A stretch of DNA of 64,000 bases, taken from Labia minor (taxonomy: Eukaryota > Arthropoda > Insecta > Dermaptera > Spongiphoridae). Position 1 is the stretch's first letter. Every line of letters begins with the position of its first letter. The translations under genes and the position numbers were made by a program. Under the pieces are notes generated by a model that was given only the letters and a program-made list of their open reading frames with translations, was not told where the DNA came from and did no database searches. The DNA lies in contig OY720344.1 of assembly GCA_963082975.1 (NCBI GenBank), forward strand, positions 64,446,546 to 64,510,545, written 5' to 3'. Shown piece after piece: positions 117 through 56,862 of this stretch.

Positions 117-677
117 ACTATCTCGCCAGAAATTTCGATTTCGAGATTTTGATGTTTTTATACGTTTTAAAGGTTTCTGGATCATTTTCACTAAGGTTGA
201 GAAAAATGTCTGTCTCTCTGTGTTTGTTTGTGTGTATGTATGTAGACAATATTACGCAAAAACGATTTGAGCTATAAATATGAAATTTGGTATACCGGCA
301 TTATTCATAATTCATAGTTTTCATTCAACTTTTGAGAAATTTAGTTCAACCGGAAGAGGGTCATTACCTACAACGTTTTGATTTTTTTCCTCTAAAGTGA
401 CCGTAAAAATAATGTTGATAATTTTTCACATGATTAAAAATTGTATAAAACTGCTATATATAGATTTTCAGCTTGATTGAATCGCTGAAAGTAACAAAAT
501 TAATTTTTTAATACTGCAAATCACGCGCCAACACGTGACGTGGTGCCATCAACATACCCTCGTTTAATAAACATGATTTATTAATTTTAATTTATAATTA
601 ATTAAATTTAATTTACATATAATATATGTTATTTAATCCAATTCAAATTGCGAGATAATCGAGTGGAGACACTCCAG
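117..677 (+). mobile_element. Helentron-like family A copy A1
   Basis: Starts ACTATCTCGCCAG and ends with GCGAGATA, then hairpin GAGTG-GAGA-CACTC and CCAG. The 5' and 3' motifs are inverted copies of one another (subterminal repeats). A TGTG/TGTA tract near 215-240 precedes the core TGAAATTTGGTA. A short deletion removes the 5' hairpin arm seen in other copies. Nonautonomous, about 560 bp. Assignment to the Helentron/HINE group rests on architecture only. Confidence 0.6.
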
Positions 678-741
678 CTTATTTTATTATTATTGGTCGT
701 AGGAAATTTTTAATTATTTTTCTAAAATATATACGAAAATA

Positions 742-1130
742 TATTACGAGGTCAGGTCATGTGTCCGCGACTTTTTGAATGAAATAGATTTTTGGGTAAA
801 AAATTATTTTATTTTTCAACGCAGTCTCCTTTGATCTCGATTCACTTTGTCCAACATTTCTCCAATTTTTTTATCCCTTCCAAAATTTGTTTGTGTGATG
901 ATTTCATCGTTGTAGTCAAATCTCTTTTCGCCGAGCTATTTCTTCAGGTTTGGAGACAAGAAATAGTCACTCGAGACTAAATCCGGAGAATGGGGCGGAT
1001 GAGGAAGCAATTCGTATCTCAATTCAAGGAATTTCATGGAAATTCACTTTTTTCCATTTTCCTCTCATATCACGAGGAATAGATGTCAAACAAAAACTAA
1101 AGACCCAGCTGGTTCAAATTTCGACAAGAG
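742..1130 (-). pseudogene. mariner-type transposase remnant, 3' part
   Basis: The minus strand from about 1,000 reads HPPHSPDLVSSDYFL, the conserved mariner block around the third catalytic Asp (PDL/SDYF), then KRFDYNDEII and a degenerate C-terminus with stops. A TIR-like end, ACGAGGTCAGGTCATGTG, starts at 746 next to TA. The 5' part of the gene is missing. The adjoining 1,140-1,520 has no recognisable content. Confidence 0.7.
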
Positions 1131-1762
1131 TCAGCTAATACTTCGATAGTTGCCTGCTGAGAAGAGCTTTGTTGCTATTTAAAAGTCACGGACTTATTGA
1201 TCTACACTCGTATATGCAAAGTTACAACGGGAATCAGATTCAATTTGGAAATGAGAAACATCAAATGTCGACCTTTAAAGAACAATGGAAAAAGGGAACG
1301 CGTTTAAGCCAGAATGTGAATTATGATTTATTTCATTATAAGAACTTTTACCAAAAGTTTCCCAATTGGTTTTTATATAAACAATCCTCTGATCAATCGA
1401 TCCTCATCCATTCAAGTTACTTGTCCCGAAACCCACAACCTCCTTGACTTGATTTTAACCATGTTTGGGGATGCATACAAAGCATATAATTTTTCTTATT
1501 TGCCTGTGATTTAAGCTTTTCACAATTCTACGATAATTTATATTGAAGGTCAACTTCTTAACTGAGCCACCAGAGGCGCCACATGGAACGTTGTTTAATT
1601 AGGTCGGTTTTTTGCCCATAATTTTTGAACGGATCAACTTTTTTGAAATTTTCAACCTTATACCTTATCCTTGGATCATGATGGTTCTAATTATACCCTT
1701 TAAGATCCATGAAGCCGTTTAGAAGGAGTTTAGGATTGCGCAGTCGTTTAATTATATATATA

Positions 1763-2007
1763 CAGTAGAACCTCGATAACTCAGTAGAAACAAAAACATC
1801 AGTGTTAGTGAACCCATACTGAAAGAAAAAGCTGAAGAGTTCGCTAATTCGCTGAAAATCAAAAAATTAATGGTTACATAATTTTAAGAAACGACATGAT
1901 TTAGCATTTAAAAAAATGTTATTAACCTATCCCTAACATAGACCCTTGATAACTTAAAAAACTTATTTTGTGTTTCCCTTGGACTTTAACTTATCGAGGT
2001 TCTACCG
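1763..2007. mobile_element. pogo/Tigger-like MITE
   Basis: Terminal inverted repeats CAGTAGAACCTCGATAAC and CGGTAGAACCTCGATAAG (right end, reverse complement), flanked by TA on both sides (1761-1762, 2008-2009). 245 bp with no coding sequence. The TIR consensus and TA target duplication are those of pogo/Tigger elements. Confidence 0.8.
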
Positions 2008-2390
2008 TATATATATATTCAAAAAAATTATATATTCTGTTCCTCCAAATTCTTCGATCACGCATCGAATTCAAACAATGCAATTTATAGTTATATATAT
2101 ATATATCAAATTGATAAATTTCTTAATAATAATTTTCATAAAATTAGTCCCTTAATTTTTAAATATATATATATCAATAATGAATATATATATAAATTAT
2201 GAAAACATGTTTTTAATTTAATGTGTTAATTATACAATTATTGTATTTTTATTTATTTATACTTTTATAATTATTTATTTAATGACAATAATATCATAAA
2301 TTCAATCAAAAGTATTTCTTTCGGAAAAATAATATTTAACAAATCAACTATTGTAAAAAGAATACTATCTAATTTTTATCCTCTTCTTAT

Positions 2391-2989
2391 TACTATCTCG
2401 CCAGAGATAGTATTGCGATCATGAAAATTTTCGATGTTGAGATTTTGATGTTTTTATACGTTTTGAAGGTTCCTGAATCATCCACCATCATCAACTAAGG
2501 TTGAGAAAAATGTCTGTGTGTGTGTGTGTATGTATGTAGGCAAGATTACGCAAAAACGGTTTGAGCTAGAATGATGAAATTTGGTACATGAGCATTATTC
2601 AAAATTCATAGTTTTCTATCAACTTTTGAGAAATGTAGCTCAACCGGAAGAGGGTCATTACCTACAACGTTTTGATTTTTTTCCTCTAAAGTGACCGTAA
2701 AAATAAAAATATATGTTTGATAATTTTTCACATGATTAATAATTGTATAAAACTGCTATATATAGATTTTCAGCTTGATTGAATTGCTGAAAGTACCAGA
2801 ATTAATTTTTTAACACTGCAAATCTCACGCGCCAACACGTGCCATGGTGCCATCAATAAAAAGCCAAACATGCGCTGGTTTAATATTTATTATTTATAAT
2901 TTATAATTAATTAAATTTAATTTAAATATAATATATTATGTTATTTAATCCAATTCAAATTGCGAGATAGTCGAGTGGAGACACTCCAG
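2391..2989 (+). mobile_element. Helentron-like family A copy A2 (most complete)
   Basis: 5' end ACTATCTCGCCAGAGATAG (itself a small hairpin), (TG)n/TGTA microsatellite at about 2513-2538, core GATGAAATTTGGTA then ATCAACTTTTG then ACCGGAAG, 3' subterminal repeat GCGAGATAGT, and terminal hairpin GAGTG-GAGA-CACTC ending CCAG. About 600 bp. This is the reference copy for family A here. Confidence 0.65.
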
Positions 2990-5900
2990 CTAATTTTTTT
3001 TATATTATCTTCCCATTAACTACTCGTTTTCTAATTTTTATACCAATAAATGGCTTCTCTATCTTCTTCCAAACGAGCTTTATGTACTTTCAAATACATC
3101 CTGACTAAATATGAGGATGCATAGAATAATTTTTCAATAAGTATTCATTGTCATACAATCATTTAAAAAAAATATAATACATATATATTTTGTCTTTAGT
3201 TCTAATTTGATTTGATAAAAACCAGATCTATCTTGTTTTAATTAAAAAAATAATAAAAATAAAATTAGAATAAAAAAATAATAAATTCATTTTTTTATAT
3301 TTGGATGTTCTTTATTATTCTAAAATGTACAAACAAGAATAGGGAGGGGCAAAATGGATATGTACGTATATATACATACATATATATGTATATGTATGTA
3401 TATATACATATATACTGTACATTTAAATAATTATTTTCCAATAAAATGTCACATTTAAAACAAATTTTTCCTTTTTTTCTTTTATCTAAATCTATTTTTC
3501 TTTTCTTTTAATTCATTAAATGTAAAAAATCATTTTATTTTAATCTATTGTTTTTTTTTGTTATGAATTCCTTTTAAGAAGTCATAATATTATACATATC
3601 ACAATAATGAAAATGACGAAGAAAAACAGTGAGAAGTAGTTTTGTTTATATTTTTTAGTTTTTTTTTATAATCTTTATTATTTTATTTTTTGAATTTTTA
3701 GCATTTTCATTTAATTTTTATTAAATTAACAGAATAAAAATTGATTGAGCAATTTATTTTGATATTGCTCTAAACAAATAAAGTCAAAATGGACCCTAAC
3801 AAGTTGATAGATATTTTTGTTCACATTTTAGTAATATATATAATACAACATATTTTTTTTACTTGAGTACATAGTACTATATTCAATACCAATCAAGAAA
3901 TGACATTAATAAAAATATGTCAAAACAAAGATAGACTTAGCATATTAAAGATTTAATAAAATTAACAAACAATAAACAAAAACAAAATAACAAACAGATA
4001 CAATAAAAAAGCGTATCATATTTATATACATACATGATATTTTTATTATTAATATTTATATTTTTTAAACTTATGACTAGTAAAAAATTATCTGAATATT
4101 TTATTTCTTTCTGATTTTTTTTTAGATATGATTAATCTTATATAATTATGATTATTTATGTCTTTATAAATTAAACATGAATACATGGTTTTTCAAAAAT
4201 CTATATATGAGTGTGGATTTTAAAAAATAATACAAAAATAAAAATATTATTTACCATATTTTTTATTATTCAATTATCAGCATTTTTATCTTTTTTTTTT
4301 TTTTATTTGACTAGATCGATATTTTTCCCATACTATATTTATAAAGATATCAAGACTAAAATGAAATTCAAAAAAAGTTAATACTTTTATGTATTTGTAT
4401 TTACAGAGAGTGAAAACACAACCTCAATTGTGTATATGAAATATAATTCGATAAATTAATAATTTTTATATTTAAAAAACACAACATTTTTATTACACAG
4501 AAAAAATTTAAATAAATATATTTACGCAGCCTTTATTTTTTATTTTTTTTTTTAAATAACTATTTATTCTTATAAAATGAAGCTTATATTTATTTTCATG
4601 AATTAGGTGCTGATTTTATAAATACTTTGGTGACTCTGACCATTCAATTACAATGAAATAAAAAAATTTTTTATATTGTTTGTTTTTTTCAACAAATAAT
4701 AATAATTACTGAATTTTTAGAATTTAATTAACTAGAATTTTTGTGGTAATTACGAATTTAAATTTGCCACATTTTTTAAAAGGGAGAGCGCTTAGGGCGC
4801 CCTTTAAGGGCGTGGCGCAAGTAAAATATAAAACCCTTTTGATAATAAAATTCAAAAGATTATAAGAAATAGAAAAAATAAATCTAGTATTTTTTTATTT
4901 TATAGATATCCTTAATCTTAACTAATTTAATGATGAAATTTGATATTGGTTTTTACTAGTAATTTCCATAGTTGAAAGTTTTATAAATATATATATATAC
5001 AATCAATACCTTTGTAATTTAGCGGGAAATTTCATATTTTGAAATAGCAGGCTTATGGCACTTAAATTAATTTTGTTTTAATTAATTAATATTTTTTTAT
5101 AATAATTGTATATAATTTTTATTTTTGACAAACAGTCAGACAGACAGGTCACCAAAGATATGCAAATCACCCTAATACCTTGCAAAAGGCGTGTTTGTTT
5201 ATTTCTTAATGAATATACATATAAATATTTATATATATATATATTTATTTATTTATTTAAAAATAGAAATAAGTGAAATGATTAGTATATTACATAAGAT
5301 ATATGTGGATGGACATGAGACACAAAAAATGTGTCATAATTTCTATTGGAACGGCACAATTCAAATTTAATTTAATTACACGCATCGTTTTTTTATTTTA
5401 TTCAATCTTACCATAATTTTATAATATATCTTGAGGTTTTTCTCCCTTTGATATGCAACTCCAAATAACTAAATATCTAATAAAATTATATAAGAAATGG
5501 TTAAATTATTTCATAATAATTCTATTTTAATTTAGTTTTCAATAGTTCATATAAAATTATCATACATATATATGTATATATATTTATATTATTTATGATA
5601 ATAATTTTATATTTATATATATACATGCATATGAAAAATGTTCTTAATTTAATGTTGAAGATGATTTATTTTTAAATAAACAAACACGCCCTTATTAAAT
5701 CTTGGAAAAATTTCACCACTCGCTCAAAGACACGCCAAACTGAATATATATATATATATATATATATACATCTATATACTTATATATATATATATATTTA
5801 CCAGAGAAACGTGCCTGAAGCGTTTGAATTTACTTTATCAAATATTATGTATATAGAGATATATATGTTTAATATACAAGTCCGATAAATTTCATATATT

Positions 5901-6900: not shown

Positions 6901-7030
6901 GTGGAAAAAAAATCGCGCGCGCCGTTTTTTTCATTCTTATATATATATATTATATTTATAATATATTTGTTTTGTTTTGTTTTTTCAGTTCAAAAATGAG
7001 AGGTGAAGAGAAGAGCGAGATTTAGGCGTT

Positions 7031-10578: not shown

Positions 10579-13500
10579 TTGATTTAGTTAAATTTGGATA
10601 AAAATTAATTAAATAAAATTTGTTAATTTGAACAGAGCAGTGGTTTGCACTTTGTCAACCAAATCACTAATTGCCTACCTATCAGGGGCTAGATTCATAT
10701 TTTTCAAATTTATCAATGAAAATTACTAAGAAAATTCATATTAAATATTACACAAATTAATTTTATTATTATTTTTAATCATAATAAGTTGCATACCGAC
10801 TACAATAACTCCGTCTGATCGTTGGCATTGTATAGATCCATCGACGCCCATTGTCCAATCAAAAGTTAAGCAGGGACCACTGAAACATGGCCGAGTCTCC
10901 CATAAAGCAGTAGGACATGGTTCTCCACCTTCAGCAGGGGCTTTTAATACCGCTCTGGATCTTGTTTGATATCCACCTAATTGAAATTAAAATTATTTAG
11001 ATTTTTTTATAATATTAGAAAATTTTGTAAAAATATTTAATGAAAATAATGATATTTTTTTCTTTTTCTTTTACCAAGACCAGGTCCGTTACAATTTCGA
11101 TGACAATGTGACCAACGGGACCATTCACTCAGTTGACAATCGCCTCGGCAAGGAACATAACAGGAGGCCTGGGTTTTTAGATCAAGGGCAGGAAGACTAC
11201 GACAGAAATGAACATCGACTGGTGCCCATCCATCCCGCATACAGGTTACGTTTCTCGAGATGGTCCCATGACCACACCACGCGCCCTGTAAATTCAAATT
11301 TCCAAATTTATGTTTATTTCATTTTATTTTTCATAAACTTTGGTTTCTGATCCTGACAACAGCCATCATAGTCAATCTTTACAAGATATTATAAAATAAA
11401 TATTTACATAATTCATAAACAAAAATAGTGATAATTACTATTAGAAATAGTTAAATAATAATATATATTACAAAAAATAAAAATATTTAAATAATCTATA
11501 TAATCAATTTATATTTATTATTATTTTGAAGATAGAAATATTGTAATAAAATTTCTTAAGAACAATATTAATATTTTGACAAAGCTTTTAGAATTTGTTA
11601 GTTAATTCTTTAAAAAAAAAAATTATTTAGAAAATAAATTCTTACATGTAAGTCGCAGGGTCCCCAATCACCTCGACTCCAGGAATAACAGGGCAAAGCT
11701 GGACACGGTTTGGTCTGAACTAAAGGTTGTGGGCAAGGACGGCCCTGTGCGCTTGGTTGGCTCACCACCATACGGTAACGTGACATTTGAGTAGCTATTA
11801 AAAAAAATATTAAACAAATCAAATTTTAAATAATTTAAAATTAAGTTAAATAAGTATATAAATCAAATATTTGAAATATTCATTGAATAAAACTATAAAA
11901 GCTAATTCTACAAGTTTATTACTTTTTTAATTTATTATGCTAAATTAAACATAAATAAGCAATTTATAATTAATGACTGTTTTATCAACAAGCATTTAAT
12001 GAATACAACTATTTTCAAAGAATAAATATATCCTTATACTTTTTAATTTATTATACTATAATATATTTTTAACACCTATAATTCATTCATTAAAAAAAAT
12101 TACAATCTTTCCTTTTTTAATCTTGATAAGGGAAGTTGGTTGCAGAACAAATATCTTTTAAATAATTTTAAATTAAGAAATAATAAATAGTAAATTTTAT
12201 TATAAATTTTTATAAATTAAAAAACAATTCTTTTTTCATTTTATGATTAATATTATGATAAATTTATGAAAAATTATCATAAGAATGAAAATTTATATTT
12301 TAATTGAAAAAATACAATAAAATACAATAGCATATACAATATTTTATTTTTTAATGCATTTTAATATAAGTATATATATATAATAAAATAACATGCATAC
12401 CAGCATCTCCACAACGGCATTCTGACTTGTTCCAATGGCTCCATGAAGACACCTCACAATCCACTGGGCAATCAACATAACACCATTTTTCTACTGGATT
12501 GGGTCTAGTACTTTGATCACAAAGAAGATCATCAACAGTTCGTCCATCACTTCGTTGACAAAAGGGCGCAAGGGTTTGTACCCCTTCGCCACATGGCGAT
12601 CCACCAAGAGGCAAACATGACGACCAAATAGTGACTTTCCAAGTATAAGAGAAACAAGTGACATTCAAACGACAAGTTTGCACCTCAATCAACGGTGGGC
12701 AAGCACGAACTGGGGGGTTGCTATGCCCAGAAGTGGCAGCAGGTCTTAAGACAGCACGAGTGCGTTGTCGTTCACGTGATGCATCACACTCCTACAACAT
12801 CAACCATGCAAAGTACATAATACACGCTTTATATATCATTGACTCATTATTTAACATTAATTATTATACTTAAAACATACATATTTTCTATGCAATCAAT
12901 TAGAAAGATAAAGAATGTGATATTTTAATTATACAAAATTATATTTATATATGCATATTAAATTGATTATAAAATGTATCGTCTTTATTTATTTTTCAAC
13001 TTTATTATTTTAATTATGAGAAAATTATAATATTTATTTATATTATTGTATTTTTATTTAATTTATTATTCAGCGAATGAACGTTAATATGGTAAAAGAA
13101 GGAATTTTCTTATGAATAAATGTGGTTTAACAAATCAACTGCAATAAAATGAACAAATGCTGGTGTGAATTTGAATACAAAATGGAATATCAAAGAATAG
13201 TAAAGAAAGTAAAATTGAAACGCCATATCTATATATTTGTATCAAGCTTCAATAAAATAATGTTTTTGAAACCAATAAAATCACATTCTTTCATATCGTG
13301 AGACAATTCCTATTCTCTTATACTACTTTCCTATTTGCTAGGATATCATCTTCCTATTACATTACTTGGTTTATCCTTCTACTAATCGTTTTCTAATTGA
13401 TTTTCCAATAAATCAAATTTTCAATAACCTTTCATCTCTTTAATTATATTTGTTTTATCATACCAGCAAATTAATAATTCATTATATAATCTTTACTATT

Positions 13501-14415
13501 CCCTAATTTTACCATCTTTTAAAATCATAAATCATATCTCACAATTTGAATTATTTTTAATAATAGATTTTCTGTTTTATTGGCTTTAAGTATCTATTAA
13601 CTCATATATAGTAGCCAGTTTACATATATATTTATTTTATTTCAACGCATTAAAAATATTATTTTTAATTTTTGAGAAATTAGTGAGATTTGAGCCATCA
13701 ACCTCAACTTAAGTATTTTGACATGAAATAAATGATAAAGACCAATGAAATATGAAAAAATGAAAAGCAAAATTAATTAATTAGATTTTAATTTTGTATT
13801 TACTTATAAATAAATTGTAATAAAGTTAAGGGCGATACCTTTGGACAGGGAGCCCAATCAGACCAAGGGCCAAGAACACAATCGCCAGGGCAAGCAACAT
13901 GACAAGCGTTGATATCATCTGGTTGAGAAACTGGATCACACAGTTGATCAGAGACTTCCACCCGTCTTCTTGTATCCATACACCTGCAAATACGAGATCT
14001 CAATCAATACTGAAAATATATATTAGGTATTTTTATAGTATAAAATTTCACTTTCTAATCAAATAATATAAAAATGTACGGGGACACTTATACAATAGAA
14101 AACAAATATATTATTAATATTCCTTTATATTTAATAAGAATTAATAAAAAACATCGAGTATTTTTTTTTTCTAAACCAATTATTATAAATAAAGCAATTC
14201 ATAAACTCATTCTATATTTTATGTTTTTTTTTATAATAATTGTTAAGTTCCAATTCACTGCATTAAGGAAGAAGATATAAAAACATGTATACTAATTTTT
14301 TTTAACTAATAATCTATTTATTTTTAGAGATGAACATTTTTAGATAAATCATATATTTAAGTAAATATTATAAAAGAAATTAACATATAGCTTATTTAAT
14401 AAAATATTTTATATC

Positions 14416-14459
<44 letters not shown>

Positions 14460-16083
14460 ATTTTTGGCTGCACATTGCTCAGAATTTAAAAAGTTTTGCA
14501 TATCTTCGCTTTTCATGACCTCTAGAATCCAAAAGTGACTTGAAAATTTTTCATGTTTGTCTGTATGTCTGTCTGACCGGAAAATTATGATGTTATAGCC
14601 TCAAAATCCGCTGAACCGATTTTTATGAAATTTCATCACAATAATCTTAAATACCTCTATATGAACATAGACTATAAATTATATCAAAATCTATTCAATA
14701 ACCGCAGAAATTAATTTTTAAAAATCTATATAATACTCCGTGTTGTTCATTCAATAGCCTTTCGTGGCTCAGTGAAGAAGCCGATTCATTCTAGCAATTC
14801 CCAAACAAAGAATTATCATAATATTTAAATTTAGAAACTAAGGTTCTGTAATCACAAAGGATAATAATATTAAAATGCAGAAAATAGGCTTATCTAATCA
14901 AAACTATTATCAAGGAGGATCAAAATTGAAATATTAAATTTTACAATAAATATAATTTAAATAGTTTTTATATTTAACTTTATATACCTGAACAGTGTAA
15001 TGCTTTTCTAAGATTTATTTGATAAGTTTGAACTAGACTAACTATTAGAGATAGAATTTGTTTTTTTATTATTTATCAAACTAAAATTTCTTTTCAAATG
15101 AAAATCTTATAGAACGGTATTGGTATATTAACATATTTCTATATAATATTTTATTCATTTTATTTATATTTTTTTATAATTATAAGATAATAAAACAAAT
15201 TTCACATATATGTTAAGAAAAAGAGAAAGAGAACTCTATAACCACTTTGAAAGTAGATGATTGAAAAATAAAAAAATATAAATTGGGGAGTAAAAAATTC
15301 AATTCAATTATATATTATTAAAAAGTAAATTTTTTTTAATTATATTTTCTGTTATAAATAAATAAAACTTACCGAACTTTATGATATTGATCACCAGTTC
15401 CGCAGCCAGCATCTCGATCAGCCTGGATCAATTGACATTCGCTCCATCCACCAGTGACCCATCGATATTGTGAACATTCTACCCTACAAACTTTTTGTTC
15501 TAAAGTCACACCACATGGTCTTCCACCATTTTCTGCTTGACGAAGATATTTTCTCGTTCGATTTTGAATTCCCGGACCACAGATGGATGAACATTCACCC
15601 CATGAAGACCATTCGCCCATCAAACAATCAGTAGGGCAAGTGACCATACATGGCTCCTCGTCCAATCCAGATTCTCTTCCACACAAACTGAAATCAGATA
15701 AAAGTAATTCATTTATAGATAACAATTTATATAAACACTATAGATTTATAATGTAGATTATTTAAAATTATCTTTCCTTTCTTAGCTTATCGCCTGAAGG
15801 TTTTCCAATTTCTAGTCCCTTATAAATAAAAACTTTTCACTTCCTTTTTTTTCTTTCAATTGATTCAAATATACCTCCCTATAATTCTAACTATATTTGA
15901 GAATGTAAATAATGTATTTGTTCACCACTATTCCCCAGTAATATCAGACATTTTGGGAAACTCTAAATCTATTCTCATTTTCTAAAGTCATAGATCTCAT
16001 CTCAAACCTATAAAGTACATTAAAATTGCGGAAATACTAAAATCACTTATAAAACTAATTATTTAATTATACATTCTTTATGT

Positions 16084-16125
<42 letters not shown>

Positions 16126-19100
16126 CGCGTTTAACCTTTCTCTACATTATTAAATAACTTTTTATCTCATTATAAATCCCATCCCATTATAGAAAAATTA
16201 AAATAAACATATTTATTAGATTTGTATCTTGCCCCAAGGTGTACGACAGTCAAAAGTAAATGTTAAATAAAATTTACTTGGAATTGTTTTTTCAAGAAAA
16301 GAAAACTATTTCTAGTGACAAGTTAGAAGCAAAATGATAAAACTCTTAGAAAATAATATTTTCTAATTTTATTTACAACGAACTTTTTGATATTCTGAAT
16401 TTCTAATCCTTAAGCCTAATTTGTTCCTAATGAAGGAAGAATAACTATTAATAAACAGTGGTTACGAAGATTAAATAAAACATATTTTAAACACACAACT
16501 TGGCATATCTTGGGTTCCAAGCTGGATCACTTCTATTTGTCCTAAAGTGTGCCACTTTAAAATTTAGAATGCATTGATGTTAAGTTTACCTTCAGAACTA
16601 TAAATATTCATGAATTTTAAACAAAATATTTTAAATTTGATTATAGTTCGTTTTATTTAAAAATATTTTCAATAAAATTATCTTTACAACTTATTGAAAT
16701 TTTATATGAATTATTATTATTATTATTTATATGAAATATTTTATATAAATGTTATATGGACTTGTTCTAAAAATACAAATCTTAAATAATTCTAATCTGA
16801 TTTTTCAAATGATTCAAAACACACCTGACAGTTTAAGTGTGATGCTCTTACATCTGCAAGATCTAAGAATTAATTTAAAAATTAGGCCAAAAAATAAAGC
16901 TCTCCCGAGGTATACTGTGTCCCAAAGTGAGCCTCTCCCCCATAATTATGAATTACATTAAGTAATAAAATAAAAGACAATAAAATCAAGCTTTTTGTAT
17001 TAAGGATTTTTGATTTCCCTAAGATTTTGTTTATACTTTAATTTCTTTTTGTCTTTAAAGTACTTTCATATAAATAATTTAATAGAATTTTTCTGATTTC
17101 AAAATCTTTAGGACTTTTTAAAAGATATATTTCACTTTGTTGATTATCCAATATATTAATCATTTTTGTGTATAAATAAATTATTTGTCTCATGTGAAAA
17201 ATTATAGAAATATGAGGATTGTTTTAAAAAATAAAACAAAAATTAAAAAATTGCATTGAAATGTTCGCGGCTGGATGTTGTGGTTGATATCCTTTCGTTT
17301 CAGTTGATAAGCAACGGTGGGGAGTAAGCGGTCGTTGACTGTCTACGACGTTACCTGGGCTCGACGAGGCGGCCTTGCTCATCGTAACAGCCGAAACGAC
17401 GCGTTCGTGAACCGGCGCCACAAACCCCAGCGGCTGGCCGTCCGTTGGCCGTCACGTCGGACACTTCACGTTCTACGATGCAGTCACTCCATGGGCCATG
17501 GGCACGCGCCGTATAACGACCACATGGACACGCACGTGTTTCTGACAACGGGAACGTACCCTGATTTTGACAGGGAGTACGGCTACTCGTCAATCCTGAA
17601 AGGAAAAAAAAAATAAAATATTTTTTAAATTTTTGTGTGAAATTTTCAAATTTCAAAAGTTTTATTTAAATTTATCAATATTAGATGGTCATATTTATTT
17701 CTTCTTTTAATAGTAATGGATATTAATGAAATATCGTAGAAAAATAATGTTAGTACATGTAAATTCAAACACAAAATTTACGTTTTAGAGTTAGAAATAT
17801 TACCTATTTTTTCCAGTCTTTTAAAAAATAACAATTATTCAGAGTTCTAAATTATTTTCTCTATAAATAAATAAATAATTATTATAAAATTATTATAAAA
17901 AAGTTTTTTTATTAAGATTTAATAATTTTTTAAATAATTATTTTATTTTTAAAATCTTTTTTTAAGAGGTGAAAAGAAGAGAGAGAAGAAGGGGTTTAAA
18001 ATAAAAATCATCGAATTATTTAAGATTATTAGAATCTAGTATAATGGGTATAGATTCTATAGATATGAATCATCGTCTTTAAGTTTCGCAGCTTACGGTT
18101 TTACCATTTTATATTACAGGTGAATAATATTAATGAATGATTTGTAAATTTTAAGGTAGAAGAGAGATTTACCGATCAGTTGACGAGTTCTTGTTTTCAT
18201 AGCACAAGCTCTTTCGCATGTACCAAATGGTGACCAATTGCTGAGCACGCAAGGGTACTTGCAATGAACGAAGCAGGGCTCCCATTGAACTGGCGGTGGA
18301 ATTGGCCAAGAACCGTGTTGAAGACAGAGACCAGGGCTTACCCGCGAACTTCGATGATTACGAGAACACCAAACCGCTGCAGATAAATAAACAATCATAT
18401 TACTATTAATATAAAGGCAAAAACACTGTTTTTCTATAACAACCAAAATCTTCCCAGTCAGGTCGCACTCAGCGAAGTAAATTATAGGGTGTAGAATATA
18501 TATACCTAAAGCCTAGTATATAGAAACTGTCTTTATAACATGATATATATCATATTATTTTGTAGATAGTCAACAAGTCAATTCACTTTTTGTAAAGTTA
18601 AAATTGAATATTCATTTTTTTATTATTATTATTTAACGTCAACTTAATTCAAGAAAATGAACAAGTTCTATTAAAAAAGAAGATATGTGTATATGAATAG
18701 AATATATGGTCACTGTAGCGTTTCTCAAATCTTAAATTAAGCTAATTGCTCAACCTTGGGCTTTATTCTTTTAGTTCTGCTTCTCTAAGTTTGCATACAT
18801 TCCTCATCGACGGACCGTTACGAGCAGCCTGATTATTGCTCTAATTAATTATGATAGAACATTCTTTTTTACAATTTAGATATATATTTCTTCAAAAAGT
18901 CAATTGGGCCCTCTTCTATTTAGCTTATTATATTCAGTTAATATAATTTTATTTAAAAAAATCTAATTCAACGTGGAATATTCTATTTATATAATATATA
19001 TAATTTTGTTAGACACCTCATCTTCATTCCCTAATGAAATTTAAGATATTTTATTTTATTATTTACTAAATAACATAATATATTGAAAATTTATTAATTT

Positions 19101-22100
19101 TTAGATTTTTAAAAATATAGCGAAATATTATCATATGATAAATTTTTGGTATTTTTACTTTCCCGCATACTTCGTCAAGATCTATCGAAATCTCGAAGTC
19201 GAAATTTTTGACGATTCCAATACTTCCCTTATACGAAGTATGCGGGAAAGTAAAAATACCAAAAATTTATCATATGATAATATTTCGCTATATTTTTAAA
19301 AATCTAAAAATTAATAAATTTTCAATATATTATGTTATTTAGTAAATAATAAAATAAAATATCTTAAATTTCATTAGGGAATGAAGATGAGGTGTCTAAC
19401 AAAATTATATATATTATCATTCGATAGATCTTGACGTTTTAGACCTCCCTGAGTCGGAAAATACCATTTTTCGAATTATGTCTGTGCGTGTATGTATGTA
19501 TATATGTATGTATGTAATGTATGTGAGCAAATTTACTCAAAAACTAATCAAGCTAGGACTTCGAAATTTGGTACACCGATATTATTCACAATTTGTAAGA
19601 TTTCTATCAAAATTTCGTCAAAATCGGTTAACCGGAAGTGGTACTTTACCTACACTGGTTGCGTTTACCTTTCAAGTAAAGTACCAGTTTGCTTAGAGAT
19701 ATTTGCTTCATATTTTGTATATAGATTTAAAAATATGAAAAAAATTCAGATACCAAATTTTTTTATATATATAGATATATTTGCTAGAGAAAATTTTGAA
19801 TACTCATTTGTCGACAGAATATGTATTCATGTTTTGACCACAATTGTTTGTTATATTTTAGTCCAATCGAAATTAACAAATTATATTATAATATTAAAAA
19901 TTATTTAAAGAAGATATGCAAAAAATTTTAAATTCTGAGCAATGTGCAGACAAAAACCTTTTTCTATATATATAGATAGGAGAAGATATACCTATATATT
20001 AAATGTTTTTTTTTATTGTTATTGTAGGTAGTTTAATTTAATTCAAAATTACTTTTTGCTTGTATCTTTTTAATTATTATTTTTTATTCAGATTATTATT
20101 ATGAGTTTTTTTAATGAATAAAGGTTACAGAAAATTTAAATGAAATATTAAGATTGTAATTTTAACCTCCTAATTCCTTCCAAGTTACAACAGAGAAATT
20201 ATATTATTTTGATTGCTTAATTAAAACTAAATTATAATTTTTACTAGTCACTTAAGTTGTGAATTTTTTGAATTTTAAAATTAAATATACATTCAATATT
20301 TATACAAATTAAGATTTAGTTGTTTGATAGAAGAAATTTTATTAGATAATTTAAAAAAATAAATTTCTAAAATTTTGTTTTTGTTAAAATTACGAATATC
20401 AATATTATAGGTGAAGTACTTGAATGTAATCTGATTTATTACTTGGAAATGTTTGAGTGCAGCAACCTCAATCCTAAATCGTTTATATTTCCATCAAATA
20501 AATTAGATATTAAAAATGTAAAATTGTATTGATACATGTATTGTATTTATATCAAATATTTAATTAAATAAAATATGTGATATATAAAAATGTTTTATTT
20601 ATTTTTAAAGAAGAATATCATATTTAAATTAAAGGAAGTATGGTAAAAATAACATAAAAGGAGATTGTAAAGTAGAAGTTAATCAAATGTAATTGGTAGG
20701 GTTTCTTAGGATCCCTTCCGTGAGGGAATTAAAATGTTGACCAGCCAATTATTCTTCTAAGAGTTGGATAATTGGATTTGGTAGATCACGCAGAGGTTGG
20801 TCGATGACTGGGGTGTTTACCTCGAGTGCGGTAGCCCATGCCACATTCGACATTGGCTGGGAGTTGGCAGTCACTCCATTCGCCAATGCCCCATAGATAA
20901 TGTTTGCACCGGGCAGCAGACAGAGGACAAGGCCGTAGTTCTTCAGCGGAAGGACAGGGACGCCCACCGTGTGCCGGCCATGACAGGACAACTCGACGAC
21001 GAGACTGGATAGGCGCCACCTCTCCATCCACCACCTCTGAACTAGCATCTGCAAAAACACACAAACAAAGATTAGATTGGGAACAAAAGAATAGAATAAA
21101 AATAATTATTAATAATATTTTATTATATTTGGTCATGTTTTTGTTTTACTGTAATTAAAAAAAATATTCCTTATTATCGAGTTTGGCTGGTAACATTAAT
21201 AACTGGTTCACCGAACCATAATTCAAATAATTTAAAAGAACATAAAATAGTAATAAAACATATACACCTTATTAATGCTCTGAAAGACAGAAAAGTATGG
21301 TCTGTTGATATAACATAATATATATTTTGTAATTTGATTTTATTTATATTTATAATATTTTGTATTTAAGTAGTTGTTGACGTCATTTAATTTTTTTTTT
21401 TTATTAAGAAAAAACTAATGAAGATGATTGTTCCTGAGGCTGAAATCAATACAGATCGATTTTTCTTTATAAAAATTATCTATGGTGTGAATTTCAAAAA
21501 AATTCTTCGAGAGGTTTAATATTTCAAAAATACAAATATATATTCAAATATATATGTATATATACAATTTTTGCTAGTTTAATAAGATAAGATAAGATAA
21601 GAGTTCTATCAAAGGTTATCAAAAGGAAAATACTCAAACGAATAATAAGAAAAATTAATTCTTGGAACCATAAAACGTAAAGAAAACTAAAATGGTATAT
21701 TTGTTTTTTTATTATTATTGCATTATAAACTAAAAAGATGATTCTATGTGAATTTATTATATATCTAATAAAAAAACAAATCAAAAAATTATTTAAATTA
21801 AAAATTTATTTATAAAGTATGATTATATAATTGAAATTTTAATGGATTAATTTAAATGCATAAAAATTTAAAAAACTATATCCAGTAAAATAATTAACAA
21901 TTATAAATGTAGTCGTATATTAAAAATATTACTGGTATAGCTTATATATATATATATAGCTAGACATTTGGAATTCATTTGATGTTTACAAAATAATGAG
22001 ATTTTTAAAGTGGGAATATATAAAAAAACTTATTTACTATAATAAAATTTTCTATGTTGTTTTTTACTTCACTATATACTATATATATACATATATAAGT

Positions 22101-37100: not shown

Positions 37101-40100
37101 AAGAATTTATATAATTTTTAATAATTTCTTTATTAAATATTTTTAACATTAATTTGTTTTTTTTTTAATGCATAAATCAAGGTGAAAAAACAAGATGATT
37201 TTATTTTAAATAAATTAAAATGTAAAACATCATAAAACAAGAAAACGAGGCTATTCGATTAAAATCTTATCTAAACGATATAGGAACGAAATACTTAAAC
37301 TCTATTGGTGGATAAAATAATAGGATTCATTTTATCACGATTTACCATGAGAAGATTTTAATCACTATTAATTTTATATGAGAGAAAAGGAATCAATACT
37401 TGATATACTTAATCATCCTTTTCATATTTTAAATTAAACATTAATTAGACGAAATGATGAAAATTAAAGAATAGAAAAAGGAATTTTGTAATTTGTGTGT
37501 TATAAGAGAAATCGTAAATTTTTAACCATTCTTAAAATTTCTTAAAATACACCTCATTCCATCCCGTCTCTCTTCCGATTCCCTCATATCGGCTTTTACA
37601 TTATCCTTCCTCCATTTATGGCACATGTCTCGTTCATTGTAACCTTTTCTATATTATAATTCTATCTACATATATTCTGAGATGTATAGAAATTTTCATT
37701 ATCTAATCTCTATCATTTCCCCAGAGATGTTATTTCTTGCACTAAATTACTTTCATAAATATACCCTAAGTTTATTCTTTTTTTACTACCAGAGATAGTA
37801 TTGCGATCACGAAAATTTTTGATGCCGAAATTTTGATGTTTTTATACATTTTGAAGGTCCCTGAGTCATTTTCACTAAGGTTGAGAAAAATGTCTGTAAG
37901 TGTGTAGACAAGATTACGGAAAAACGGATTGGGCTAAAATAATGAAATTTGGTACACGGGTATTATTTAAAACTCGTAGTTTTCTATCAACTTTTGAGAA
38001 ATGAAGATCATTCGGATGAGGGTCATTTTCTACCACGTTTTCATTTTTTTTCCTCTAAACTGGCCGTAAAAATAAAGATATATATTTGATAGTTTTTCAC
38101 ATGATTAAAAGTTGTATAAAACTGATATATATAGAATTTCAGTTTGATTGATTAGCTGAAAGTACCGGTATTATAATTCTATAATACAGCAAATCACGCG
38201 GCACCACGTCATGTGGTGCCATCAACAAAGAGCCCGCGCTAATTTAATAAATATTATTTTTAATTTATAATTTTTTATTAAATTTAAATTAAATATAATA
38301 TATGTTAATTAATCCAATTCAAATTTGCGAGATAGTCGAGTGGAGACACTCCAGATTTTTTATATTATGAATCACTGCATAATTTTTTATAACTATAAGT
38401 TTATAAGTTTTATAAATTTAATTTTTAATAAAATAAGTTTTGTATATTCATTAACAAACTCAAGCATTTACCATTGGATTTAAATTCTTTTCTAATATTA
38501 TTATAAGTCGTGATTATACAAATAATAAATATATCGATTTTTTTATGAATTAATACTATTAATTTTATTTAATTAAAATTTAAAAAAAAATACAAAACAT
38601 TAAAAAATAAACTTACTTTCTTTTATTAAATTACTTTGACTATATTCTTAATATGAAAATACAAATTTTAAAAATACTAATAATTTAAGGAAGCTTAGGA
38701 AGATTGAAATTTGTCCGCTGTATGTATGTGTTATATATGAAATTAACTGCCTAAGACATTTATTTGTTATGATCATCGTCATCATGATTATATTGATGTT
38801 ATATTATAATTGGGATTAATTCAGTTGATATCAACAAACTTTATTCTGATTAACATTCATATTTCTAAAGTAAATTCATTCAGATGAAATTGGAGATTAC
38901 ATACTCAATTTTGTGTGTCCCTTAATTATCATATTTTTGCACTTGTATTGAAGCTTTGTTCTATTTGAACAAATTTCAACGCTTCTCATGATTTGTTTCG
39001 ATACTCAAGCCGAATAGCCATCGAATTAAAGACAATAAAAAAAATATATCATATTTTAAATAAACGATTCTGGTTATCATATAGGTATATACATATTAAA
39101 AGAATTTTATATTCGTTTTTTGTTATAATATATTTTATCATAAATAACTCTATATTTTCCTAATATAATAATATCATTAAAAGAATAAAATAAAATATTA
39201 TTAAAATAAGATAAAATGAATATATATACTCATACCATATATATTTCTATATATATATATATAACTGCTTTTCAGCAACTCGTCCAAAGCATCAACTTCT
39301 AATATTGGATTGATTTCCTTTTGAAAATTAGAAGATATGGAGATTGATATAGGATTTTAATTGGATAATATAGAACTTTTAGAACCTGGTATAACCTGAA
39401 GATGTATGAAATCCTAAACTAAAGGCTCGTTGTTTTCCAATTAAATGTCGTCTTAAGCCCAATTACACGGGCTTAGTACTTGTCATTAGTTCAGAGGTCG
39501 GCAATACTTTGGGCCAAAATGAAATTGTCAAAATGTCTTCCGGGCCGGAGGACCATAATTCGAAAACACTAATAAAAAAAATTTATCTTTTTTTTAGAGA
39601 CATATTGAATGAAAAATCAAAATAAGAGCGAACTTTTTCAACGGGCCAGCGGGCGTTCAAAAAGCCCGCGCTTAAAAGTATTTGCTGATAGAAAGTGGAA
39701 ATTTTTACATCACAATATTTCCCCAATTAATTTCATTTTTTTCATAAAATATGTGAATAAGGGAGGTATGGATAATTTTATTTTAAATAATTTTAATTAT
39801 AAATTTGTCAAATAAAAAAAACATAATTCCAGAATTTTTTGCTCATTAAATTATAAAGAAATTTTAAATTTCTTCATCAATATTTGCAAAACCTTCGATA
39901 CATAAACCTATCTATTATACATTAAATAAAACTGAGCATTGAAAGGGAAGGAGAGTATTTTAAAGCATAAAATTCACAAGTATCATCTTTCGTTAGATTA
40001 CTATCTAAAAGTTTTTAAAAGATAATTAATCATAATTATTATGATGAGTCTCTTAATAGTTGTTTTTCTTTATTAAAATGATGAAAAGATAAAGAAAAAA

Positions 40101-43100: not shown

Positions 43101-46100
43101 ATGCGATATTACTCATGTAGGTCGTCAATATGTTGTCAATACGCTATTATCATTTATAATAAATAATAATAATAATAATAATGATAATAAGTTGACCTGT
43201 GGCCAGGTCCAAACCGACCGACTGTTTGAAATAAATTAATTTCCAGCTACAGAAACAATTTCAAATAATTTTAATATATCTATTAATGTAATAAAAAACA
43301 GATATGGATACATAAATAATAAATATAAACATTTTTAATTTTATTTTATTTATAATATATATGCAAGACCAGGCTGTGACGTCATGAATGGCTGGATGAC
43401 GTCATATAATTTTAAATCAAGAAAAAACTAATAAATATGATTTTTCTCGAGGATAAAACCAATACAAAGTGCATGATTCGTGGTGATATATAAAAAAATC
43501 TCCTTTGGTGTGAAAATAACCCTTTCCTTCCTATCGTCGATCGCTAATACTACCACTTCCGGTTTCCGGAATTGCACCAAAAGTTGATCAATTCATCCCA
43601 CTGATGCATTAAGTAAATATACCAAATTTCATCAAAATCGGTTGAGCCGTTCAGGCTGTACACATCTATACGGACGGACGGACGGACAGACGGACGGACA
43701 GACATCATGCTAAAAATACTTTTTTCTGTTTAGAAAATGCATGATTCGTGGAGATATGTAAAAATCTCCACATGTGAAATTTGGTGTGAAAACAATACCT
43801 CCCTTACTATCGTCGGTCGGTAAAAATAATACTTGGTTTAAATTAAATATTTATTTATTAAAATTAATTCATAAGAAATATTAAAAAATTTAAAAATAGA
43901 TAAATTACCTAAAATTAAAATATTATTATTATTGAAGATCAAATTTAAGTAAACATACATTACTCAAATCAATTAAAATTGTTAAAAGATTTTCTATTAA
44001 ATTAATTGAAAAATTATTTTATTTTATGAATTGTTTAATTATATTTTCCACTTGAAATGAATTATACATTTTTACGTCTTCATAATAATGAATTGTAAAT
44101 TTCATAATGTGTATTTCCTATTTACTTAAAAATGGATACTTGTACTTTAAACGCAGATGGTATTTGATAAACTAGCCCTTTTTTCCTTTCATTTACTGTA
44201 CTCATTTAAGAACATTGAGATTTTTTTTAAAAAAACTCCGTTTGAAAATTAAAATAAACGAAAACGCAAATTATTTACATATGATCGCACACTTATGTCT
44301 GATGTCATTTCTATAATCTCTGAATGGAATCTTTTTTTTTAACTCAACATTTACATAGAATAAAACAAATGAACATATTGATTGTGAAATTATTGTATTG
44401 TATTTATGAATTGTGTAGATATCAATAATAACAAAACTGACAAATTTTTAAAATTAACGTGGAACAAAATATAAAAATTGAAAAGTTGAATCAATGACAG
44501 GGTATAAAAAAATATAAAATTTTGATAAATTTTTCTAAATTTCAACACAAAACAGGTAAATAATTAATATAACCGGTACAGTTCATTATCCTAGAATAAA
44601 TTGTTTTTTTTTTTATTAAAATATATTTTTATTTAAATGTCTGAATGTGTAGTGCCATTCATGACCTTCCGAATGGTTTAAATCATTAAAAATATTATTT
44701 TTTTAACGGCCTCAAATTCCATAGCGTAATTTTAACAGTGAGATTCTTTATATAGGCAAATTATTTTTTATTTCAAAATGTTTGATTATACAAAAAATTG
44801 ATGACAATCTGGTTTTATCAGAAATATCCTTAATACTGAATAGCATTCTTGAAGGAATTCGAAAAAGAAATTTTAAGAAAGTACTTATTTTTTGAGATGA
44901 CTTTTCATTTAGGTTGTAGACAAGAAATTCCAAGAAATATATTAGTACCAAAAAAATAATCAAATTTATTTTCAAATTAAACCCTTTGAAATTTGAAAAT
45001 AATTTCTAAATACTTCTTTTAATATATATACTCGTATTCGTATATACTAATCTATTTACTACATATATATTTATAATATCTTATAATACATATATTTATT
45101 TTAATAAAAAAATAAAAAAAAACTTTGGAATGTCGTTTTGTTGAATGTTATTTCCTGGATTGTAATCTTGGCATATATAGAAACAATTCTTGTTGCTTTT
45201 CCCCTTTAAATTTGGTTAATTAATTAAATAATGTTTAATGAATTCTAATTCTTGAGTTGAAGGTTCGATGATTATGATCATTATGGTTTGTTCTTTGTTT
45301 CGATACGCCTTATGCTCACATTTTTTTCTTCATAATTTTGGAAAATTTAAACAAATAAATTTAAAGTAAGTATTGAAAATGATAAATTAATAATTAATAA
45401 TTAATTAATAAACATTTTTATCAACTTGTAAATTTATGAGAGACATTAAAAACTTTTTTTGAGAAAAAATTAAATTAGAATAAAAAATAACTTATAATTG
45501 ATTAATTAAGTCTATCTTATTTTTTTACTGCTTATTTACTTTTTAGTTATATTTTATATTTATCATATAAGAGATAAATATGTCAAATTTAGAAATTTTA
45601 CATGAAATGTATATTAAATACTTTTTTATTGATAGAAATTATATTGTACCCAAAGTAAATTCATTCTCGAACAATCCCCAATCAATTTAATAATTATTTT
45701 TCAAAGTTCATAAAATTTAATTAAAACTATGATTCAAGTCAAAAAAATCTCTGGATTTGAACCTCTGATTTTCGCCCATCAAGCCGGGTTAGAGGTGTCT
45801 TCCTTATTCTAGATTTGCTTGATCGGGGCTGTTAGCTGCCTAATTTTGATCCCGTAAATGGTCCTTGCTCAAAAAGACGTCAGCTAAAGAAAAATTTTCT
45901 TGCCACATCTTGGAAAGGCAAGTGTGTTGCTCCCCATCCACGTGGGGTCATATGATTCAAAAGTAAGATAATTTTAATTTAGTGAATCTCAGAATAAATT
46001 CAAGTAATTATCTAATTAATTAATGATAGAGATAATTATAAACAAAATAAAATAAAAATGAAAAATTCATTAAGCCAATAAGCAAATGAATAATAACCAG

Positions 46101-52295: not shown

Positions 52296-52326
<31 letters not shown>

Positions 52327-52841: not shown

Positions 52842-52878
<37 letters not shown>

Positions 52879-54412: not shown

Positions 54413-55000
54413 ACTATTTCGCCAGAGATAGTATTGCGATCAGAAAAATTTTCGATGTCGAGATTTTGATGTTTTTATACGTTTTCAAGGTCCCTGAGTC
54501 ATTTTCATTAAGGTTGAGAAAAATGTCTATCTATCTCTCTCTGTGTGTTTGTGAATATGTGTGTGGGCAGACACGATTACACAAAAACGGTTTGAGCTAG
54601 ATTAATTAAATTTAGTACACGAACATTATTTAAAATTCGTAGTTTTCTATCAACTTTTGAGAAATGTAGCTCATTCGGAAGAGGACCTTTACCTACCCCA
54701 CATTTTCTTTTTTCCTCTAAACTGACCGTTAAAATAAAGATATATATTTGATAGTTTTTCACTTGATTTAAAATTGTATAAAACTGCAATATATAGAATT
54801 TCAGTTTGATTGAATAACTGAAAATACCGGAATTAATATTTTAACACTGCAAATCACGCGCCTGCACGTGACGTGGTGCCATGAACAAAGAGCTCAACAC
54901 GCGGTGGTTTAATAAATATTATTTATTAATTTTAATTTATAATTTATGAATTAAAAAATTTAATTTAAATATAATATATGTTAATTAATTCAATTGTTTT
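54413..55000 (+). mobile_element. Helentron-like family A copy A4, 3' end missing
   Basis: ACTATTTCGCCAGAGATAG start, TCTCTC/TGTG tract, core with TTAAATTTAGTACACG and ATCAACTTTTG. Similarity ends near 55,000 before the 3' subterminal repeat and hairpin. Confidence 0.55.
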
Positions 55001-55080
55001 GAATTTTTATATACATTTTTTTAGAAATCAAAAGAATATCGATTGGAAATCTTATATATTTATAAAAAAAAAAGTTTATG

Positions 55081-55398
55081 TCTGCACATTGCTCAGAATT
55101 TAAAATTGTTTGCATTTCTTTACGTTTAATGACATCTAGAAAGCAAAAGTTATTTAGAATTTTCAATGTCTGAATGTTTGTTGTGATGCTATAGACTCAA
55201 AATTGGCTAAACCGATTACTATGAAATTACATCACAATATTCTTATAAATCTCTCTTTGAACATAGGCTATAAACTTAATCAATTATCCATTGAATAACA
55301 GAAGAAATTAATTTTTAATTTTGTTAATTCAAAGCCTCTGCGGACACTGTGAGCATGTCCAAGCAAGCTCGTCAATAAATATAAAAAAATAATTCTAG
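55081..55398 (+). mobile_element. Helitron family H copy H5
   Basis: Starts TCTGCACATTGCTCAGAATT. The core is related to GGCTAAACCGATTACTATG. It may end at CTAG (55,395-55,398) or earlier; no clean 3' hairpin. Confidence 0.5.
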
Positions 55399-55753
55399 AA
55401 ATTCCCACTAAAAATTAGAATATTTGATTTTGTTTAAATTTTAAACAACACATGTAATCAATTTTATGGACATAAAATATAAAATTTTGAAAATCAACTT
55501 GCTTTTAAATTTAGAAATATGAGTTAAATTATAATAGGTTAAAATTTGATTATTTAGTTATAATATAATTGCAACTTGGATGGGTAAATGAATTGGACTG
55601 TGGTAGGATCTATTTATAAGTTTGTTCTGATCTTAGGAGAATATCTATGTGGTTTAAGGCCAAAACTAAATTAAATTAAATTAAATCTAATCTTGTTAAG
55701 AACATTCAATATTTCTGTACATAATTTTTTTCGAAAATTGAAAGTTTATTATA

Positions 55754-55961
55754 AATAAGTTGACCTGTGGCCAGGTCCGAACCGACCGACGGTTTGAAAT
55801 AAATTAATTTCCAGCTACAGAAACAATTTCAAATAATTTTAATATATCTATTAATGTAATAAAAAACAGATAGGCATATTACATAAATATTTTTAATTTT
55901 ATAACATTTATAACGTCATGAATGGCTGGATGACGTCATATAATTTTAAATTAAGAAAAAA
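55754..55961 (-). mobile_element. Family B fragment (3' part)
   Basis: ATAAGTTGACC with complete 3' hairpin and subterminal repeat, internally deleted, ending in AAGAAAAA where the next copy is inserted. Confidence 0.75.
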
Positions 55962-56490
55962 ATAAGTTGACCTGTGGCCAGGTCCGAACCGACCGACGGT
56001 TTGAAGTAAATTAATTTCCAGCTACAGAAACAATTTCAAATAATTTTAATATATCTATTAATGTAATAAAAAACAGATATGGATACATAAATAATAAATA
56101 TAAACATTTTTAATTTTATTTTATTTATAATATATATGCAAGACCAGGCTGTGACGTCATGAATGGCTGGATGGCGTCATATAATTTTAAATCAAGAAAA
56201 AACTAATAAATATAATTTTCCCGAGGATAAAACCAATACAAATTGCATGATTTGTGGTGATATATAAAAAAATCTCCTCATGTGAAATTTGGTGTGAAAA
56301 TAACCCTTCCCTTCCTATCGTCGATCGCTAATACTACCACTTCCGGTTTCCGGATTTGCATCAAGAGTTGATCAATTCATCCCACTCATGCATTAAGTAA
56401 ATATACCAAATTTCATCAAAATCGGTTGAGCCGTTCAGGCTGTACACATCTATACGGACGGACAGACGGACGGACAGACATCATGCTAAA
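55962..56490 (-). mobile_element. Family B copy, minus, interrupted
   Basis: From ATAAGTTGACC through core to GGACGGACAGACATCATGC. It breaks into an opposite-strand copy at about 56,490; its 5' end continues at 56,863-56,959. Confidence 0.75.
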
Positions 56491-56862
56491 ATTAGCGATC
56501 GACGATAGGAAGGAAAGGGTTATTTTCACACCAAATTTCACATGAGGAGATTTTTTTATATATCACCACGAATCATGCACTTTGTATTGGTTTTATCCTC
56601 GGGAAAATCATATTTATTAGTTTTTTCTTGATTTAAAATTATATGACGTAATCCAGCCATTCATGACGTCACAGCCTGGTCTTGCATATATATTATAAAT
56701 AAATTAAAATTAAAAATGTTTATATTTTTTATTTATGTATCCATATCTATATTTTATTACATTAATAGATATATTAAAATTATTTGAAATTGTTTCTGTA
56801 GCTGGAAATTAATTTACTTCAAATCGTCGGTCGGTTCGGACCTGGCCACAGGTCAACTTATT
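56491..56862 (+). mobile_element. Family B copy, plus, 5' truncated, nested
   Basis: TTAGCGATCGACGATAGG to AGGTCAACTTATT. The 5' half is deleted. Its 3' end joins CTGTTAAG of the minus copy at the same site as B2 in B1/B3. Confidence 0.75.

Follow-up and report, generated by a model that had tools for sequence, protein, structure and literature searches.

A 64,000-nucleotide (nt) window from the dermapteran Labia minor—contig OY720344.1 of assembly GCA_963082975.1, positions 64,446,546 to 64,510,545, with "window" meaning this whole stretch—holds repeated copies of three interspersed families, here named A, B and C, which share a core of short sequence blocks at constant spacing. The original prediction, made from the letters of the window, described families with unrelated ends and proposed that the core is a functional or exchanged module. 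We conclude that A, B and C probably belong to a single Helentron-type lineage of non-autonomous rolling-circle transposons, similar to HINE and DINE-1 elements, and that the order and spacing of the core were inherited within it. Once the families are seen as one such lineage, the surprise of a shared core is largely gone.

Relatedness of the three families

The homology of the families extends beyond the core. After removal of the core, the microsatellite and the terminal 15–20 letters, the 5′ parts still align: A/C scores 48 and B/C 41, reached by 0 of 1000 shuffles each, and A/B scores 35, reached by 1 of 1000. Because the 5′ parts align without these segments, A, B and C appear to have diverged within one lineage, with the core as part of a homologous left half; the shared spacing would then stem from descent and not from module exchange. 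A and C can be aligned from their first base, and their 3′ ends look alike by eye. On the 3′ side of the core, A and C continue to align (0 of 300 shuffles), whereas A and B do not (123 of 300). Hence, the ends described as unrelated are not so: the anatomy is shared, the ends of A and C are homologous, which the original prediction itself had named as a refutation, and outside the core the 5′ parts are homologous in all three families. The termini do differ letter by letter, as had been noted, without being unrelated.

The exchange of a module between otherwise unrelated elements, as first proposed, is highly improbable. Three of the four C copies outside the window (sampled stretches L017, L021 and L022) carry a B 5′ end and a B core after a T run, which could be taken for exchange; these composites correspond to the nesting of a whole left half in another, and A, B and C are homologous 5′ of the core as well, so that exchange is not needed. 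The idea of unrelated families sharing an exchanged module is rejected on account of these homologous 5′ parts. The junction of the composites, with the B 5′ end joined to C after the T run, is the same in L017, L021 and L022 (about 4480–6100 in L022), and this C–B composite with two cores, which ends in the C 3′ end in L017 and L021, has itself multiplied.

In the window, the order of blocks 1, 2 and 3 recurs in four copies of A, seven of B, one of C and a diverged B-like pair. The fixed order claimed for A, B and C thus stands, on pattern matches and on their excess over shuffles. The elements are as follows (cores on the minus strand start at their higher coordinate; subTIR, subterminal inverted repeat):

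A1, family A, 117–681, plus strand: 5′ ACTATCTCGC..., microsatellite, core 279–356, 3′ subTIR and hairpin 650–677.
A2, family A, 2392–2993, plus strand: 5′ ACTATCTCGCCAGAGATAGT, core 2573–2650, 3′ GCGAGATAGT and hairpin 2962–2989.
A3, family A, 37785–38355, plus strand: core 37941–38018, 3′ end 38327–38354.
A4, family A, 54413–54995, plus strand: core 54604–54681; A 3′ end pattern not found.
C element, 19157–19700 (right limit approximate), plus strand: 5′ ACTTTCCCGCATACTTCGT; core 19560–19638 with one-base insertion, gap 32.
B1, family B, 24096–24734, plus strand: core 24279–24356; then its own first ~100 nt repeated in inverted orientation, to ~24836.
B2, family B, 31167–31775, plus strand: core 31330–31407.
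B7, family B, 33087–33863, minus strand: core 33554–33631; inverted 5′-end copy beyond the 3′ end.
B3, family B, 33864–34392, plus strand: core 33948–34025; 5′ end missing.
B4, family B, 35550–36169, plus strand: core 35722–35799; 3′ subTIR CGTCGGTCGGT and hairpin ACCTGGCCACAGGT from 36132.
B6, family B, 43187–43821, minus strand: core 43556–43633.
B5, family B, 55961–56494, minus strand: core 56340–56417; 5′ end missing; within a cluster of B fragments.
D1, diverged B-like, 36659–36937, plus strand: core 36853–36930; second copy at 34803–35081, minus strand, core start 34887.

Two of the positions first given need refinement: a B copy does lie at 43,187, which is the 3′ end of a minus-strand copy, and a C copy does lie at 19,176, which falls inside an inverted duplication, the 5′ terminus being 19157. 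The 5′ part of this C element is broken up by the duplication, and the C 3′ end was not seen in it. At 18991–19417, two perfectly inverted 185-bp arms separated by 57 nt contain the C 5′ end and its flank twice; the appearance is that of a fold-back inverted duplication or of an assembly error.

Inverted arrangements also accompany B. Arms of 533 bp (100% complementary), continued by arms of 252 bp (97%), flank B4 at 34756–36984, and the diverged B-like core is found in both long arms. B carries a diverged second copy of its own first ~90 nt directly after the core (24365–24456 in B1, with equivalents in the others), and beyond three of the ten B 3′ ends listed for the window lies an inverted 5′ end of ~100 bp. 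Several minus-strand frames at 12351–21145 resemble, by eye and without a family search, thrombospondin type-1 repeat exons; the introns of this putative thrombospondin-type host gene would hold some of the repeats.

Ends, internal anatomy and canonical Helitrons

The assignment to the Helentron type follows from the subTIRs, the 3′ hairpin, the T-rich borders, the left microsatellite and the homologous 5′ parts. By eye, the subTIRs measure 10 bp in A (ACTATCTCGC/GCGAGATAGT), 11 bp in B (ACCGACCGACG/CGTCGGTCGGT) and 13 bp in C (ACTTTCCCGCATA/TATGCGGGAAAGT). Also by eye, a hairpin lies 3′ of the 3′ subTIR (GAGTG-GAGA-CACTC in A, ACCTG-GCCA-CAGGT in B, GGGAG-GACA-CTCCC in C), and an inverted repeat complementary to the 5′ subTIR stands beside it in A (ACTATCTC-GCCA-GAGATAGT) and C (ACTTTCCC...GGGAAGT). 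The left part of all three families bears a variable microsatellite.

A starts with ACTATCTCGCCAGAGATAGT after TTTTT and ends in GCGAGATAGTCGAGTGGAGACACTCCAG..., B starts with ACCGACCGACGATAG after TTTT and ends in CGTCGGTCGGTTCGGACCTGGCCACAGGTCAACTTA, and C starts with ACTTTCCCGCATACTTCGTATAAGGGAAGT after TTTTT and ends in GCGGGAAAGTCTAGGGGAGGACACTCCCGCTTAT (L017 and L021)—a 3′ end with 1,930 exact copies in the genome and none for its control. A T precedes the 5′ end in 74 of 76 cases (17 of 18 A, 52 of 53 B, 5 of 5 C), the B matches including its internal second 5′ end, and T-rich 3′ flanks border 47 ends (17 A, 27 B, 3 C).

Two other classes were considered and rejected. A cut-and-paste element with terminal inverted repeats—for instance a miniature inverted-repeat transposable element—does not fit, because the 3′ repeat is subterminal, with a hairpin after it; B owes its resemblance to such an element to the inverted 5′ end. 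The ends of a canonical Helitron (5′-TC, 3′-CTRR, A^T site) do not fit either: none of the families has the 5′-TC, all beginning with AC after T. B and C end in ...CTTA before T and A in CTAA (9 of 17 ends) or CTTA (8 of 17), which leaves the CTRR end mixed in A—about half, as CTAA—and unmatched in B and C.

Several observations speak against the Helentron-type assignment or leave it without a partner. B has no inverted repeat beside its 5′ subTIR. The genome contains 104 Helitron_like_N matches; in the search for an autonomous partner, 12 loci and the flanks of two elements were inspected, and in none did the element itself bear A, B or C ends. When 15 pieces of Helitron-bearing loci were searched with a core profile, the best match had E 2.3. 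One autonomous element with a long open frame, at about C9:43360614–43370409 and read in pieces (L042, L036, L043), is a canonical Helitron (family X), judging by its end, seen by eye as a hairpin and then CTAA; pattern and profile searches found no core in it. A second element was read in part.

A second copy of the Helitron at C9:43.36 Mb lies at C9:45.51 Mb and shows 99% identity over the flanking pieces that were compared, and an A-type core nearby (L045) falls beyond that element's end. Given the long open frame, the 99% identical copy and further Rep matches of equal score, the family was probably active recently. The window has short stretches related to its ends at 21157–21593 and 60392–60502, probably the Helitron family H in which the original prediction had seen a weak relative of block 1. 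The similarity of H is borderline: compared with the B left arm, its score is reached by 0 of 500, 1 of 500 and 5 of 1000 shuffles, with the A left arm by 231 of 500 and 141 of 1000, and with the C left arm by 119 of 500 and 19 of 1000.

Abundance, spacing and conservation of the core

Genome counts refer to the 604-Mb assembly. The 14-mer of block 1 has 35,830 exact copies (reversed control 10), and exact blocks 1 and 2 occur together at any gap of 16–46 in 27,982 places (control 0). For the first 100 pairs listed, which all come from the beginning of contig C1, the gap is 31 in 99 and 33 in one. A C-specific pattern is found exactly at 2,408 places, with gap 31 in all matches listed, and the C siblings in L017, L021 and L022 have 31 as well. 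In view of these siblings and matches, a gap of 31 or 32 does not distinguish the families: the gaps of 31 and then 14 hold for A and B as claimed, whereas the 32 ascribed to C is a one-base insertion in the window copy, C normally having 31.

Both gaps were tabulated in the window plus 200 kb of genome, consisting of 20 stretches chosen for exact 14-mers and not at random. Here, a core profile gave 74 matches at E≤1; 59 of them reached at least 40 bits, and 52 passed the block thresholds. The spacing is 31/14 in 51 of these 52, the exception being the window C copy (32/14). Hence, the spacing does not show the free variation outside the window that the original prediction had named as a refutation, and it is near-constant among the genome matches listed. 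Low core diversity within families was not counted as evidence, because the copies were chosen by core score, mostly by exact 14-mers.

Chance as the origin of the core is ruled out by shuffles and by the genome counts against their controls (10 and 0), as had been claimed. In the window, whose G+C is 25%, the 14-mer with up to 3 mismatches occurs at 53 places versus 24.2 in shuffles (largest 40), block 2 with 1 mismatch at 18 versus 4.0, and exact block 3 at 11 versus 0.35. A loose composite pattern finds 17 places, of which 14 are A, B, C or B-like cores and 3 are poor, with 10–11 substitutions. Seven between-family core pairs were aligned, each against 1000 shuffles; five scores (A2–B1, A2–C1, B1–C1, C1–D1, A1–B4) were reached by none, those of A2–D1 and A4–B2 by 7 and 21. 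The content of the core is less uniform than first described: C holds relatives of blocks 1 and 2 only (11 of 14 and 8 of 11 letters). A coding region is not favoured, since a single core of 14 lies inside a stop-to-stop frame of at least 110 amino acids (19453–19908). The window has 10 such frames, one of which (this one, 151 amino acids) overlaps such an element, namely C; the frames were not searched against families.

A pattern designed to miss A, B and C matches 46 genome places (control 1), mostly A or B variants by eye; C2:24893131, C6:27060052 and C10:43886532 are not obviously such variants. GATTTTGATGAAATTTGGTAC occurs at 35 places (control 0). Core scans of a viral contig collection gave 0, 0 and 1 matches, the sole match lying by eye in apparent coding sequence without a microsatellite, and a prokaryote contig collection gave one Vibrio match, by eye without microsatellite or second block; these two collections carry no information on arthropods. 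In the full-text literature, the motif letters matched only a paper on a Liriomyza leafminer and one on a polymerase chain reaction for Streptococcus suis.

Across the three family consensus sequences, 48 of 108 ungapped columns are invariant, with runs of 11 (GAAATTTGGTA), 9 (AACCGGAAG) and 5 (ATCAA). This clumping exceeds that of random columns (run of at least 11, P=0.004; sum of squared runs, P=0.0002), which fits constraint. It argues against plain descent—a core without special role, whose spacing is held by low indel rates in three families of one lineage that have simply diverged no more—as does the contrast between A and B, which align in the core (0 of 1000 shuffles) and not 3′ of it. 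Plain descent is nevertheless a real, if less than even, possibility, and the following points tell in its favour and against the inherited core having been kept for a function. In the best local alignments of A and C, identity is 72/103 (70%) in the core, 47/70 (67%) before it and 64/100 (64%) after it, and a 70-nt stretch of the 5′ part is free of indels as well. Ten 3′-anchored B copies of the window match their consensus at 0.90–0.93 in the core and 0.93–0.99 downstream—a rough comparison, the 5′ parts being truncated—and thus show no extra core conservation. Also against the main reading, though not in favour of plain descent, 7 of the 59 cores were weak and set aside from the spacing table: four with other gaps (31/10, 31/23, 32/13, 23/14), one with 31/14, and two incomplete. 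Because the core of A and C hardly exceeds the flanking parts in similarity, a special constraint is likely but modest. Of the proposed functional or exchanged module, the conserved core hence remains, and exchange does not, given the homologous 5′ parts.

Possible roles of the core and related systems

One candidate role is an imperfect hairpin in RNA or single-stranded DNA, in which block 1 (GAAATTTGGTA) would pair with block 2 (TATCAA.TTT) and an outer stem would compensate between A and B; we regard it as rather unlikely. It draws on an ungapped alignment of 32 of the 59 cores, which leaves out truncated, irregular and duplicate copies and some further ones, including the window C copy. 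For these, RNAalifold pairs block 1 with block 2 on the plus strand at −2.57 kcal/mol versus about −0.2 after column shuffling, reached by 0 of 60 shuffles of each of two kinds; in the outer stem, three neighbouring pairs have both partners changed between A and B, and the minus strand of this alignment gives no structure. The best ungapped register is reached by 2 of 300 shuffles. For a named structure of 25 pairs, 65.9% of cells are paired versus 60.9% in shuffles, and the covariation score is 0.151 versus 0.084 (0 of 500 each).

Other results oppose the hairpin. In the named structure, pairs changed on both sides are fewer than in shuffles (7 versus 9.4), and sliding it by one column keeps 0.118 of the 0.151. 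Nine single cores fold no better than shuffles (z from −2.8 to +0.9), and the core has no Rfam match at gathering score, so that a known RNA family was discarded as a candidate. For the three consensus sequences (A–B–C) on the plus strand, column shuffles reach the fold in 8 and 12 of 200 cases and in 21 and 18 of 400; A–B alone is reached by 5 and 2 of 400, A–C by 150 and 112, and B–C by 98 and 101. The minus strand does as well (A–B 1 and 2, A–B–C 12 and 12 of 400), and a 5′ stretch of B–C outside the core is reached by 19 and 43 of 400. The structured element suggested by the original prediction thus finds weak backing in A–B, and none in A–C or B–C. With three lineages only, and with an inner stem that hardly varies and therefore proves little, the structural evidence is suggestive only.

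A repeated protein-binding site—iteron-like or for a host transcription factor, with one word in both orientations—is a possible but doubtful alternative. Sixteen arm pairs were compared for complementarity, each with 500 shuffles. The B left arm scores 38 against the reverse complement of the C right arm (shuffled maximum 26), and the left arms of A and B score 33 and 34 against that of the C second right arm, reached by 0 of 500 shuffles in each case. Compared between families, block 1 and blocks 2–3 have the look of inverted arms. In three of four C copies (L017, L021, L025), this second right arm contains the 14-mer in exact reverse-complement form, with ACCGG further downstream, and B copies contain TGTGAAATTTGGTG in both orientations. 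When the two arms of one family are compared, complementarity is seen in A (2 of 500), whereas its lack of significance in B (367 of 500) and C (61 of 500) counts against such a site. The arm comparisons agree more with an inverted repeat of ancestral origin, or with a binding word that recurs, than with a hairpin that every family has strictly preserved. ACCGGAAG presumably resembles an ETS-domain consensus.

For the Helentron-type lineage as a whole, the core may have been kept as part of a cis-acting left-end site for mobilisation in trans, a reading that we hold with somewhat less than even confidence. It leans on the analogy with Helraiser, for which the available part of the source describes a crucial intact left terminal sequence, the transfer of one strand and the formation of double-stranded circles (PMC5876387). 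By this analogy, the left half would be the cis-acting part read in trans and the core its constrained portion, acting either through protein-binding words set in inverted orientation or through an imperfect hairpin that the transferred strand would form; the termini would drift along with the Rep protein that cuts them. A narrower version is very unlikely: a core forming a host-recognised hairpin on the transferred strand, which would start second-strand synthesis of the circular intermediate. The single-strand origin of rolling-circle plasmids is an analogue of such a hairpin. If this version were true, the termini would change with each Rep protein while the core stayed, leaving a constant core between drifting ends. 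More generally, a core read by the host for replication or binding would explain how non-autonomous elements outlive a change of their autonomous partner.

Three very numerous repeat families of this genome would thus be a single Helentron-type lineage, and the question of the DINE-1-like left-end core is narrowed to ~110 nt with named invariant blocks. With the canonical Helitron family X, the elements share the rolling-circle class and, at a borderline level, a weakly similar CTCAAAAACCGCTCTAACGATTTTTTTGAAATT stretch in the left part; in contrast, family X ends in a hairpin followed by CTAA, and pattern and profile searches found no core in it. We take the left arm of INE-1 of Drosophila melanogaster to be similar to that of the present elements, and Coates reportedly described lepidopteran (GTCY)n "mobile microsatellite" elements in 2011. 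Lepidopteran Hel-2/MITE01, according to the available part of its description, likewise carries a tetranucleotide microsatellite behind its left subterminal inverted repeat (PMC4344730), but differs in its 5′-TC and 3′-CTRR termini and A/T flanks, where A, B and C start with AC after T.

The closest likeness is to HINE and DINE-1 elements (Drosophila DINE-1, mite HINE-Mo, oyster Cg_HINE), which share subTIRs, the 3′ hairpin, T-rich sites, high copy number and a left-side (GTCY)-type microsatellite. In the portions of the sources available, the HINE anatomy comprises a 5′ subTIR, an inverted repeat and a microsatellite, then a 3′ subTIR and a palindrome (PMC7492417), PMC4067079 likewise matches the features seen here, and DINE-1 has a conserved core together with a GTCY microsatellite in its left block, a core that its authors considered functional (PMC2374699). 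Unlike HINE, the present elements come without a detected autonomous partner and, in B, without the 5′ inverted repeat. Also in contrast to HINE and DINE-1, the core is here common to three families of one genome; the likeness drawn is one of anatomy.

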